Shown here in pieces: positions 14,173-22,134 of a stretch of 49,832 nt of DNA. Origin of the DNA: Actinomycetes bacterium (GTDB lineage: Bacteria; Actinomycetota; Acidimicrobiia; Acidimicrobiales; GCA-2861595); NCBI GenBank assembly GCA_023264975.1, contig JAHFUS010000028.1, positions 1 through 49,832 on the forward strand. The letters are read 5' to 3'. The notes beneath the pieces were generated by a model that saw nothing but the letters and a program-made list of their open reading frames with translations, was not told the origin of the DNA and did not search any database. The translations under genes were made by a program, and so were the position numbers. The number at the start of each line of letters is the position of its first letter. Within the stretch, counting starts at the first letter, position 1.

Positions 14173-14268
14173 GGAGCGGGCCGGGGTCGCTGCTGATTCC
14201 CGGTACGGAACCCCACCTCGGAGCGCGTGCGTTCCCGCACCGGCCGGCTCATGGGAGGCTTGACGCAA

Positions 14269-15300
14269 ATGACCGACGTCGCCATCTCCGCCGAAGGCGT
14301 CACCAAGCGGTTCGGTGACGTGCTGGCCCTCGATTCGGTGGACCTGGCCGTGCCCGCCGGTACCGTGTTCGGCCTGCTCGGCCCCAACGGGGCGGGCAAG
14401 ACCACGATGGTGCGGATCCTCACCACCATCCTCCAGCCCGACGGCGGGCGGGCGAGCGTGCTCGGCGCCGACGTCGTGCGCGAGGCCGACAGGGTGCGGT
14501 CGCGCATCGGGCTGGCCGGCCAGTACGCAGCGGTCGACGAGAACCTCACCGGGCGTGAGAACCTGAGGATGATCGGTCGGCTCACCCACCTGGCCCGCCC
14601 TGTCGCCGCCCGCCGGGCCGACGAGCTGCTCGAGCGGTTCGGGCTGGCCGACGCCGCCGACCGCACCGCCCGTACCTACTCGGGCGGCATGCGCCGCCGG
14701 CTCGACCTGGCCGCCGCCCTCGTGCACCGCCCGCCCGTGCTGTTCCTCGACGAGCCCACCACCGGCCTCGACCTCCGCAGCCGGTCCGACCTGTGGGCCG
14801 TCATCGCCGAGTTGGTGGCCGAGGGCATGACCCTGCTGCTCACCACCCAGTACCTCGAGGAGGCCGACCGCCTGGCCGACCGCATCGGCGTGGTCGACGG
14901 CGGGCGGGTGGTGGCAGAGGGCACGGCCGCCGAGCTCAAGGCCGGCCTGGGCACCACCGTCGTCGAGGTCGGGTTCGGCGACGACGGCCTGGCTGCCCGG
15001 GCGGCCGAGGCGTTGGCCCGCTTCGGCGTCTCCGGGCCCGAACGGGACGGCGCCCTCGTGCGTTTCGAGGTCGACGACGGGCCCCGTGTGCTCATCGCTG
15101 TCCTCGGCGAGCTCGACGAGCGGGGCATCGTGCCGGCGACCGTCGCCATCCGCGAGCCCAGCCTCGACGACGTCTTCCTCGCCCTCACCGGCCACCGCAC
15201 CGAGGAGGCGACGGCCGACCAGGCGGAGGCGGCCTCGGGAGGCCATGACGGCTCCGCGCCGGCCCGAGGCCGCCGCGTCCCCACAGGAGGTCGCCGATGA
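14269..15300 (+). CDS. ABC transporter ATP-binding protein, DrrA (daunorubicin-resistance) family
   Basis: The 343-residue nucleotide-binding subunit of an exporter. It contains Walker A GPNGAGKTT (38-46), the DrrA-type Q-loop region GLAGQYAAVDENLTG, signature YSGGMRRR, Walker B FLDEPTTGLD and the H-loop region as LLTTQYLEEAD, where the usual H-loop His is replaced by Gln as in DrrA proteins. The DrrA-type C-terminal domain with EPSLDDVFLALTGH follows. ATG 14269 has GGAGG-like purines upstream; ATG 14251 is an in-frame alternative. The stop overlaps the permease ATG by 4 nt. Substrates of such pairs are drugs or lipids; this one is unknown. Confidence 0.92.
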   Translation: MTDVAISAEGVTKRFGDVLALDSVDLAVPAGTVFGLLGPNGAGKTTMVRILTTILQPDGGRASVLGADVVREADRVRSRIGLAGQYAAVDENLTGRENLRMIGRLTHLARPVAARRADELLERFGLADAADRTARTYSGGMRRRLDLAAALVHRPPVLFLDEPTTGLDLRSRSDLWAVIAELVAEGMTLLLTTQYLEEADRLADRIGVVDGGRVVAEGTAAELKAGLGTTVVEVGFGDDGLAARAAEALARFGVSGPERDGALVRFEVDDGPRVLIAVLGELDERGIVPATVAIREPSLDDVFLALTGHRTEEATADQAEAASGGHDGSAPARGRRVPTGGRR

Positions 15301-16109
15301 CCACCGTCACCGCCCCGTCCGCCGTACCTGCCGCCCCGCCCGGGAGCAGGCTCGGGTGGGCCGTCGCCGACACGCTCACCATCGCCGGGCGCAACCTCAC
15401 GACCATCCGGCGCCTGCCCCAGTTGCTGGTGTTCGCCACCATTCAGCCGGTCATCTTCGTGCTGCTGTTCCGCTACGCCTTCGGGGGCGCCATCCGCACG
15501 CCGGGCATTCCCTACGTCGATTACCTGATGCCCGGGATCTTCGCCCAGACGGTCACTTTCGGCAGCCTCGGCACCGGCATCGGGCTCGCCGACGACCTCC
15601 AGAAGGGCCTCATCGAGCGCTTCCGGTCGCTACCCATGGCCCGCTCGGCCGTGCTCGGCGGGCGCATCGTGAGCGACCTCGTGCGCAACACGTTCGTGGT
15701 CTTCCTCATGTGCGTGGTGGGCTACCTGGTCGGCTTCCGGGTCCACACCAATCCAGTGGCGTTCGCCGGCGGGCTGGTGGTGCTCCTGCTCTTCGCCTGC
15801 TCCCTATCTGTGATCTTCGCCCTCGTCGGCCTGTCGGTGCGCACGGCTGAGAGCGCCCAGGCGGCCGGCTTCCCGATGCTCGCCCCGCTGGTGTTCGCCT
15901 CGTCGGCCTTCGTGCCGGTGGCCACAATGCCCGGCTGGCTCCAGGTCTTCGCCCGCCACCAGCCCCTGTCGGTCACCGTCGACGCCGTGCGGGCGCTGTC
16001 GCAGGGCGGTCCCACCACCAGCTTCGTCCTTCAGTCGCTGGCGTGGACGGTGGGCATCATCGCCGTGTTCGGTCCCCTGGCCGTGCGCAAGTACCGCCGT
16101 ACAGCCTGA
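15297..16109 (+). CDS. ABC-2 type transporter permease, DrrB family
   Basis: The 270-residue membrane partner of the DrrA-like ATPase, starting at an ATGA overlap. The N-terminal cytosolic stretch carries the coupling region (AGRNLTTIRRLPQLLVF). About six membrane helices follow, with the ABC-2 hallmark LPMARSAVLGGRIVSDL between helices and FVPVATMPGWLQVFARHQPL before the last helix. It exports a hydrophobic compound across the cytoplasmic membrane. The strict overlap implies coupled translation and a two-gene exporter. No regulator gene is immediately adjacent. Confidence 0.92.
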   Translation: MTTVTAPSAVPAAPPGSRLGWAVADTLTIAGRNLTTIRRLPQLLVFATIQPVIFVLLFRYAFGGAIRTPGIPYVDYLMPGIFAQTVTFGSLGTGIGLADDLQKGLIERFRSLPMARSAVLGGRIVSDLVRNTFVVFLMCVVGYLVGFRVHTNPVAFAGGLVVLLLFACSLSVIFALVGLSVRTAESAQAAGFPMLAPLVFASSAFVPVATMPGWLQVFARHQPLSVTVDAVRALSQGGPTTSFVLQSLAWTVGIIAVFGPLAVRKYRRTA

Positions 16110-16222
16110 CAGCGGTCCGAAAAATCAGGCCTGGCCTGGAACTCGTACGGCCCGGCCGTCGTTCTTCTCATCGGTTCACGAAAACAGTCCCACCTGTCTT
16201 TGACCGAACCGCCGGTGGGCCG

Positions 16223-16460
16223 CCCCCGTCCCGGATTCGTCCCTTCCCAGGGACGGGGGTGGCCGTACCGGATCCCTCCGCCGCCGGCGCGCTCTCCCGC
16301 TCCGGGCGGATGGGCCATATGCCCGATGGAAGTGCAGTGCCGACCTTCTACCGTTCCCCGTAGGGGCGGAAGGCAGGAATCGGTTGCCCGCAACGTGGCG
16401 GACGCCGGCAACTCCTGCCGTATGACGAAGAAGGGACCTCCCGGGGGGCGGGGGGTCCTT
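16223..16460 (+). ncRNA. Candidate structured RNA in a 620-bp intergenic region
   Basis: A series of strong inverted repeats lies between the DrrB-like gene and the K+ channel gene. A 10-bp stem pairs 16223-16232 with 16250-16259 and competes with an alternative stem 16238-16243/16250-16255. CCTTC/GAAGG (16344-16348/16369-16373) encloses CCCCgtaGGGG. A long hairpin pairs 16372-16378 with 16413-16419 and 16383-16388 with 16407-16412. A final GC-rich hairpin spans 16431-16460. The dyads give no strand, so plus is assumed from the downstream gene. It matches no riboswitch class I can name. The flanks (16110-16222, 16461-16730) hold no convincing gene. Confidence 0.45.
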
Positions 16461-16730
16461 CCTCGCGTCCTGCCCCGGGCCACGGGCCGCTCTACCTGCG
16501 GACTGTGTACCGCCAGGCGGACGACGACCGGGGTGTTCCATCTGTGGGCCGGCCTCGACGGGCCCGAGGACCTGTCGTTCGCCGACGACCCGGCCACCTT
16601 CCCGCCCGCCTCGCCTCCCCATGGCCGTCGGCGTCGAGAACCTCGACGGCAGTGGCGGCGACTACCGGACGACGCCCCCCACCGGAGCGAGCGGGCCGCT
16701 GTAGGAGGTCGCCCGGCGGGCGGGCGCCGC

Positions 16731-17990: not shown

Positions 17991-18737
17991 TCATGCGTCG
18001 CCGGTGGCATAGACGACCAACCGGCGATCGTGGGTCCCGTTCCTGAACGTGCCGGCACAGGTGATGAGCGTGAGGTGAGCGCGACCGTCGGCCGAGGGCT
18101 GTGGGCTGGTTCCTGCCACCGGTCCGACGCCGTAGATGCGGCGCAGCACCGAGGGGTCAGCTGCCTCCCGCAGTGAGTACGTCTCGGAGGATCCCACGGT
18201 GAAGCGCACGTCGAGGCCGGTTCGGGTGTCGCGGACGACGATGGGGTCTCCCGACCGGAGCTCGTCGATGTGGCTGAAGACCGCCGGCCTTCCGTGGGGG
18301 CTGTTGACGTGGCCGGCGAGCACGGCTGTACTCGCCGCGCCGGGCACCGCGCTGCCCCGGTACCAGAACGCTTCCTGCCACACGGGGCTGTCGGCCGACC
18401 CCATCGGCGCGTCCATGACGCCGGCCGTCGTAATACCCACCCCTGCCACCAGCGCCCGGACGCCGAGCGTCGGGATCAGCAGATGCAGGGGCACGGCCAC
18501 CGGCCCCTCGCGCAAACCGAGGTCGGACCTGATCAAGGCGGAGGGAACGCCGCCGGCAACCGCGGGGGCAGGCATGCCCGACGGTGCCGGCGCGGCCGCA
18601 ACGGTCGGTGCCGTCCCCGCGCGGGCCGGCCCGGCGGGCCCTCGCGGCGCGACCGCCGCCCCCCCGAGCAGTGCGGTCAAGGCCATGCAGGCCGCGAATC
18701 GTCTCGTCGACGGGAAGAGGGACGTCACGGAGATCAT
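17991..18737 (-). CDS. Sortase (class E/F-like)
   Basis: A 248-residue membrane-anchored transpeptidase. An N-terminal hydrophobic segment (FAACMALTALLGGAAVA) is followed by an Ala/Pro-rich linker and a sortase domain from about residue 80 (PLHLLIPTLGVRA). Catalytic His143 (LAGHVNS), Cys227 (LITCAGTF) and Arg238/239 (HDRRLVVYA) are all present. It cleaves a C-terminal sorting signal and transfers the protein to a cell-wall amino group. The start overlaps the stop of the upstream DUF3494 gene by 4 nt, so the DUF3494 protein is the obvious substrate. Small actinobacterial sortases of this type often work with a single dedicated substrate. Confidence 0.9.
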   Translation of the reverse strand: MISVTSLFPSTRRFAACMALTALLGGAAVAPRGPAGPARAGTAPTVAAAPAPSGMPAPAVAGGVPSALIRSDLGLREGPVAVPLHLLIPTLGVRALVAGVGITTAGVMDAPMGSADSPVWQEAFWYRGSAVPGAASTAVLAGHVNSPHGRPAVFSHIDELRSGDPIVVRDTRTGLDVRFTVGSSETYSLREAADPSVLRRIYGVGPVAGTSPQPSADGRAHLTLITCAGTFRNGTHDRRLVVYATGDA

Positions 18738-21081: not shown

Positions 21082-22134
21082 TCAGCCCGTGGGTCCCGTC
21101 GTCGCCTGCGCGCCGGCCCCCTCCGGGCATGGGCCCGGGAGGGAGATGCCGATCGGGCCGACGAGGCCGTCAGCCAGCGGGCCGGCGAGCGCCGTCGGTG
21201 GCGTGGCCGCGTCGAGCGTGGAGCACAGCGAGCCGAGGGCGAGGTCCGGGACGCCGGCCGGCGGGACGGCCGTTCCCGGAGCAGCGCCGTCCAGGGCGCC
21301 GACGGTGGTGGGCATCGTGGCCGGCGGCGGGTTGTCCGCCGACTCCTCCGTCGTCGGCGCCATTGAAGCCTCCGGCGGGGCGATTCCGGCGGTTCGTGAG
21401 ACGGCGAGCGGATGCCCCTGCGCCGGCAGCGCGGGCGCCATACGGCGGTCGTGCAGCGTCACACCAGCGGTGACCGAGGCGGTGGCCACCGCGCCGGCCA
21501 CCGCCATGGCCCGCCAGTAACGCGCGATCCACGCCCACAGCACTGCTGCCGTGCCGAGAACCGCTCCGGCACCGACCCGCACGGAGCCGTCGTCGCGGGA
21601 GGCGCCGGCGGCCGCCAGGTGGTGACGGAGCCCGGACCGGGCCCGGCTGATGAGGCTCTCGGCGGCATGGACCGAGACGCCGAGCTGGCTGGCCACGCCG
21701 GCCACGCCGCTGCCGCTGTCCCCGCCGAGGACGGCGGCCAGCGCCGCACGCTGGCGGTCGGGCAGGCATCGCGCCCCGGCCACCAGCTTGGCGTACAGCT
21801 CTCCGCCGTCCAGCCGCTCGTCGGCCCCCGACGGGACGGACGCGTCGAGGTGAGCCTCATCCACGGGCACGGCCCGCCGCCGACGGATCTCGTCGACGGC
21901 CAGGTTGTGGGCCACACCGCGCACCCACGCCCCGACCTGGATGGGGCCGGGCTGACGCAGGCGGATCAGCAGGCGGACGAACACCTCTTGGACCAGGTCG
22001 TCCTCTTCCTGCGACCGGCCGAGAACCCGCCGCAGCGCGTCGCGGGCGTCCCGGTCGTGGGTGGCCACCAGCGCGGCGATGGCGTCGTCGGCGAGCCGGT
22101 CGGCGCCGGTCGACTGCGAAGAGAGGGTCTGCAT
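21082..22134 (-). CDS. ECF sigma factor with C-terminal membrane segment and extracytoplasmic tail
   Basis: 350 residues. Sigma region 2 (EEDDLVQEVFVRLL, AWVRGVAHNLAVDEIRRRR) and region 4 (CLPDRQRAALAAV, then the HTH around GVASQLGVSVHAAESLISRARS) occupy residues 1-175. A hydrophobic block at about 186-228 (VLGTAAVLWAWIARYW, MAVAGAVATASVTAGV) then suggests one or two membrane helices, followed by a Pro/Ala/Thr-rich tail of about 120 residues. Such tails can let the sigma factor sense envelope state directly; no separate anti-sigma gene is visible. The ATG has an AAAGGA-like ribosome site. Neighbours are a response regulator and a secreted protein. Confidence 0.85.
   Translation of the reverse strand: MQTLSSQSTGADRLADDAIAALVATHDRDARDALRRVLGRSQEEDDLVQEVFVRLLIRLRQPGPIQVGAWVRGVAHNLAVDEIRRRRAVPVDEAHLDASVPSGADERLDGGELYAKLVAGARCLPDRQRAALAAVLGGDSGSGVAGVASQLGVSVHAAESLISRARSGLRHHLAAAGASRDDGSVRVGAGAVLGTAAVLWAWIARYWRAMAVAGAVATASVTAGVTLHDRRMAPALPAQGHPLAVSRTAGIAPPEASMAPTTEESADNPPPATMPTTVGALDGAAPGTAVPPAGVPDLALGSLCSTLDAATPPTALAGPLADGLVGPIGISLPGPCPEGAGAQATTGPTG

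Follow-up and report, generated by a model that had tools for sequence, protein, structure and literature searches.

A predicted SigE-dependent trans-acting small RNA complementary to the translation start of a surface-protein gene in a family of Acidimicrobiales

The window analysed here, a stretch of 49,832 nt from an actinobacterial genome of the order Acidimicrobiales, carries genes for a DrrA-like ATPase and its partner, a DrrB-like ABC-2 permease, followed by a region that extends from the permease stop codon (16109) to a gene for a TrkA/ion-channel protein (referred to here as the K+ channel). This region is non-coding, as stated in an original prediction made on the same DNA, and contains a candidate promoter followed by a structured RNA unit (Table 1).

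Table 1. Coordinates of the features at the locus, and of a second, unlinked candidate RNA. G000, own genome; G001, same genus; G003, second genus of the family.
Feature	Position	Strand	Basis or remark
DrrA-like ATPase gene	14227-15300		partner of permease
ABC-2 permease gene, DrrB-like	15297..16109	+	Pfam ABC2_membrane, 97.5 bits
Candidate SigE-type ECF promoter, GGAAC-N17-CGTT	16138..16163	+	equal spacing in G000, G001 and G003
Inferred sRNA transcript, ~290 nt	16170..16463	+	ends placed by promoter spacing (5') and by terminator-like hairpin (3')
Hairpin 1, presenting targeting loop UCCCAC (16188-16193)	16172..16211	+	predicted fold, covariation
Seed ACAGUCCCACCUGUCU	16184..16199	+	complementary to translation start (SD, start codon) of G000:C105:8006, LPXTG surface protein gene
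Hairpin 2, long stem, C/U-rich loop GUCCCUUC (16239-16246)	16212..16271	+	fold; both-side changes in 5/15 pairs
3' segment, blocks kept in congener only	16272..16429	+	G000/G001 alignment; no G003 counterpart
Terminator-like hairpin without long U-tract	~16430..16463	+	fold; counterpart in congener
Second candidate sRNA	L092, G000:C98:37368-37488	minus	promoter search; counterparts L147 (G001), L225 (G003), L226 (G004), L227 (G002)

The original prediction had described the interval 16223-16460 as strongly folded. This did not hold for the interval as drawn, for which 42 of 200 shuffled sequences folded equally well (z = -0.74); the significant structure was found at 16168-16271, starting 55 nt before the proposed boundary, with a folding energy of -62.2 kcal/mol versus a mean of -40.1 kcal/mol for shuffled sequences (z = -6.34; 0/200 as good), and the 3' part (16272-16470) gave a z-score of -0.44. 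The sequence elements emphasized in that prediction, GGGACG at 16250-16255 and two upstream CGTCCC copies, are present as described; the copies start at 16227 and 16238, and all of these elements fall within hairpin 2. The expectation that the RNA fits no known class was also borne out, with no credible match to Rfam covariance models at the gathering threshold or at E<=10. The structured RNA of the region is real and belongs to no known class, but its business end was missed by the interval first proposed.

A DNA search of 59 relatives revealed a strong homologue of the RNA in a genome of the same genus (G001; 69% identity, E = 2e-28); G003, which belongs to a second genus within the family, gave a partial one. 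In all three RNA-bearing genomes the constant upstream neighbour is the DrrA/DrrB-like ABC operon, with permease orthologues directly 5' of the RNA that are 87% (G001) and 80% (G003) identical to the permease of the window. The gene 3' of the RNA, by comparison, is the K+ channel in the own genome, a secreted protein in G001 and neither of these in G003. Since the downstream gene differs while the RNA is kept, the conserved unit belongs to the intergenic region and not to the K+ channel, which the original prediction had named as the gene downstream. The RNAs of the two congeners differ by single-base gaps, which argues against a coding frame. In G003, an RNase P RNA gene (236.7 bits; L063 4362-4707, minus strand) lies ~650 nt downstream of the RNA core.

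The two-hairpin fold was predicted separately, and alike, in each of the three genomes, and a covariance model built from the two congeners only recovered the G003 homologue (59.6 bits, E = 8e-12). In a three-way alignment 95.5% of the pairs were kept and compensatory changes were found, with 8 pairs changed on both sides versus 0-2 when the pairing was slid, these counts being drawn from three sequences only, aligned to a model that two of the three had been used to build. A covariance search of 397 genomes of the order yielded no member beyond the three homologues; the weak hits it returned (best 28.5 bits) were taken as chance, none having the conserved promoter and seed. When 84,980 species genomes were scanned with a sequence pattern, the 34 matches obtained were rejected, none having the promoter or stem and most falling in one coding context. 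The RNA-bearing set therefore consists of three genomes from two genera of one family, and it is on these that the covariation and coevolution rest.

Judged from sequence alone, the RNA may form an independent transcription unit, bounded by a conserved promoter motif and by terminator-like hairpins, the latter with no clear U-tract. The homologous units span ~320 nt in G001 and ~165 nt in G003, the G003 unit closing with a different terminator-like hairpin. The 3' segment, which has no significant fold when taken alone, contains several strongly conserved blocks that the congeners alone share (CTACCGTT..GTAGGGGCGGAAGGCAGGA, CGCAACGTGGCGG, GTAGGGGCGGA and GGCAGGA). The hairpin 2 loop is invariant across the three genomes. 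Its complement is found in the 5' arm of the RNA's own terminator-like hairpin, at 16430-16437 (GAAGGGAC; GAAGGGGC in G001), which may reflect an antitermination pairing or a long-range contact.

The promoter motif GGAAC-N17-CGTT begins 29 nt past the permease stop codon. It occurs 24 times in the own genome, as opposed to 2 occurrences of a reversed control, and the variant GGAAC-N15-GTCGTT occurs 18 times in 11 relatives, as opposed to 4 for the control; a spacing one base shorter, used as a negative control across multiple genomes, showed no clear enrichment. One of the own-genome matches, with partly common flanks (GGAACTC..GCCGTCGTTC), is positioned directly 5' of an ECF sigma factor gene that NCBIfam assigns most closely to SigE (at 225.5 bits it falls short of the curated cut-off of 265, such that the name denotes a best match only). 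This SigE-like gene is preceded by a TatA-family gene and followed by a zf-HC2 anti-sigma factor gene (best NCBIfam match RseA), and its orthologues in G003 and in another relative, G018, carry GGAAC-N17-CGTT as well. The small RNA and the apparently autoregulated sigma factor gene hence have a promoter motif in common, as would be expected of members of a SigE regulon, and this motif points to SigE dependence of the RNA. Elsewhere in the window, an ORF on the minus strand (21082-22134) resembles, by eye, an ECF-type sigma factor with a long C-terminal extension.

The longest invariant block of the RNA is CAGTCCCACCTGTC (16185-16198), which comprises loop and stem of hairpin 1. Between the two genera this seed is identical at 14/14 positions, versus 51/89 for the remaining transcript core. 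As an exact 14-mer it is present in two copies in each of the three genomes, but it is missing from 56 further relatives, some of which do have homologues of the target gene. The second copy lies on the opposite strand, over the Shine-Dalgarno sequence (SD) and GTG start codon of orthologous genes in 3/3 genomes, and the predicted pairing between the mRNA (CGAGACAGGUGGGACUGUGGAAAAG) and the small RNA (AAAACAGUCCCACCUGUCUUU) covers about 17 bp. Such complementarity, maintained across genomes and directed at the start-codon region of a distant mRNA, is the pattern of a trans-acting small RNA.

The energy of the seed-limited duplex is -34.0 kcal/mol, and none of 29,990 control windows of the own genome was as good (lowest, -27.0 kcal/mol); where a genome has a target homologue but lacks the RNA, the start region of that homologue gave only -8.5 to -13.4 kcal/mol. 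This seed-limited calculation was used instead of free duplex prediction between the whole RNA and the target, which gave no discrimination owing to GC content. When AGGTGGGAC was searched for upstream of ATG or GTG in the three genomes, the surface-protein gene was the only gene start common to them; a lone extra exact copy of GACAGGTGGGAC in the own genome (L039) was set aside, as it falls inside a coding repeat and away from any start. Among the three genomes there was no case of seed and target changing together, and in G002 a search for a counterpart RNA matching that genome's own target start gave no candidate preceded by a SigE-type promoter. A point against the proposed pairing is that, when the small RNA is absent, most of the target site in G003 is paired within its own leader (mean unpaired probability 0.14).

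The target gene encodes a protein of 576-577 aa that in 3/3 genomes has a signal-like N-terminus, a C-terminal LPRTG motif, a hydrophobic stretch and an RRWARRP tail, features by which it is predicted to be a secreted surface protein with LPXTG (sortase) anchoring; it had no match in Pfam or NCBIfam. In each of the three genomes a likely vegetative promoter, TTGACG-N17-CATYCT, lies ~70 nt upstream, placing the seed-matching site in the leader RNA and not at the promoter. Homologues of the target occur in 13 of the 59 relatives. In other families (L068-L076), the leaders of such homologues contain a TGACTAGTC-like element and a spaced AAATGG...CCATGG motif, most of them together with a G-rich SD, and these elements are perhaps control sites of those homologues' own. 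A sortase is also encoded in the window (17991-18737, minus strand; Pfam Sortase, 67.7 bits), ~1.5 kb from the small RNA, whose predicted target is an LPXTG sortase substrate.

Combining these observations, we consider it probable (roughly 0.7) that the region encodes a SigE-dependent, trans-acting small RNA that represses the surface protein; transcription of the unit, its SigE dependence, the repression and the kissing-loop start of pairing are all inferred. In the model that we propose, cell-envelope stress would lead an ECF sigma factor that resembles SigE of mycobacteria most closely to start transcription from the candidate promoter. Hairpin 1, whose loop and stem (ACAG-UCCCAC-CUGU) are perfectly complementary to a small mRNA hairpin over the SD and GTG start, would engage that mRNA hairpin through an initial loop-loop (kissing) contact that then extends into a duplex of ~17 bp, and this duplex would block ribosome binding and lower production of the surface protein. 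Hairpin 2, with its C-rich loop, and the terminator-like hairpin would stabilize the RNA, and additional targets may exist for loop 2.

This last possibility can be carried further, into a reading in which the SigE-driven RNA is real and acts mainly on other mRNAs, through loop 2 or the 3' part, with the surface-protein pairing being minor. The invariance of loop 2 is compatible with such a role, as is the precedent of 6C/B11 RNA, whose C-rich loops bind G-rich leaders (PMC10470900). We regard it as unlikely, however, because no other invariant block comes close in length to that of loop 1, which has a single conserved, near-perfect partner, in a comparison restricted to partners of loop 1.

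Quite unlikely, too, is that the 14-mer, which contains the short dyad ACAG-N6-CTGT, is a shared DNA operator bound by a repressor or activator, with the RNA being incidental. The position of the block at about +15 of the RNA promoter and the presence of two sites per genome, compatible with a small regulon, would suit an operator. Yet its asymmetric centre, GTGGGA, is perfectly kept, the two copies having opposite orientation. It spans SD and start codon at the target, some 70 nt downstream of the conserved promoter, and at the RNA it coincides exactly with the loop of a covarying hairpin.

There is a slim chance that the structured RNA does no more than end or protect the mRNA of the ABC transporter operon, as its terminator or 3' UTR. 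It always directly follows the permease gene, and hairpin 2 is very stable; against this, a conserved ECF promoter motif lies past the stop codon, the invariant loop is antisense to another gene, and further conserved sequence continues up to a second terminator-like hairpin. The RNA may also be both a small RNA and a 3' region, by analogy with known 3'-derived sRNAs (MicL, PMC8103513).

A riboswitch or attenuator in the K+ channel leader, in line with the riboswitch-like feature named in the original prediction, is very improbable. A structured RNA does lie 5' of the channel gene, and its two CGTCCC copies can compete for GGGACG on paper, but the alternative pairing is 9.4 kcal/mol worse than the main fold (-40.8 vs -50.2 kcal/mol; ensemble probability ~0), the terminator-like hairpin lies ~300 nt before the channel gene, the downstream gene varies among the relatives and Rfam riboswitch models gave no match to the region (gathering threshold and E<=10). 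Neither two populated folds nor a conserved downstream gene was thus found, and the competing stem, as modelled, gives no switch by itself.

Beyond the predicted SigE-dependent RNA of the window, the same promoter search uncovered a second, unlinked element of ~95 nt, in which GGAAC-N17-CGTT precedes two hairpins with C-rich loops and a strong terminator followed by T-rich sequence. This element is nearly invariant in the genus, is present in 5 of the 6 family genomes examined and had no match in Rfam, the 6C family included. Taken together with the RNA of the window, it suggests that the SigE response has an arm made up of two sRNAs. It is conceivable, if not quite probable, that the SigE-type sigma factor of this family has a dedicated repressive arm of at least two unlinked, C-rich-loop sRNAs that silence sortase-anchored proteins by kissing hairpins, as an independent counterpart of RpoE-RybB/MicA/MicL. 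If the window RNA acts as proposed, two unrelated bacterial lineages would each seem to have given an envelope-stress sigma factor an sRNA repressor arm, by which abundant surface proteins are stopped under stress, and the RNA would represent an sRNA family absent from Rfam whose sigma factor, target and pairing site could all be read from the genome of a poorly studied group. The titles and abstracts that we surveyed on SigE- or ECF-dependent actinobacterial sRNAs contained no description of such an RNA.

In E. coli, RybB, MicA and MicL are transcribed from sigma-E (RpoE) envelope-stress promoters and repress the mRNAs of abundant envelope proteins, and MicL, which is derived from the 3' end of a gene, represses Lpp (PMC8103513). 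The window RNA resembles them in its predicted ECF envelope-stress promoter and in having an envelope-protein mRNA as its predicted target; it differs in that no sequence relation was seen, the phylum is another one, the sigma factor is a different member (SigE-like) and the predicted target is a sortase-anchored wall protein. The mycobacterial 6C/B11 sRNA (Rfam RF01066) likewise has two hairpins with C-rich loops, which bind G-rich leaders (PMC10470900). Loop 1 of the window RNA, in contrast, has a specific partner of 16-17 nt and not a short C-run, its promoter is of the SigE type, and the RNA did not match the 6C model RF01066 at gathering or E<=10. S. aureus RNAIII uses C-rich hairpin loops to base-pair at the ribosome-binding site of a surface- or exoprotein mRNA (spa/coa) (PMC2837412). 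The likeness here is that of a C-rich hairpin loop directed against the ribosome-binding site of a surface-protein mRNA. RNAIII is controlled by quorum sensing, is ~500 nt long and is unrelated in sequence to the window RNA. By analogy, and with no claim of membership in any of these families, the window RNA would work in the manner of RybB, MicA and MicL, using C-rich loops such as those of 6C/B11 and RNAIII.
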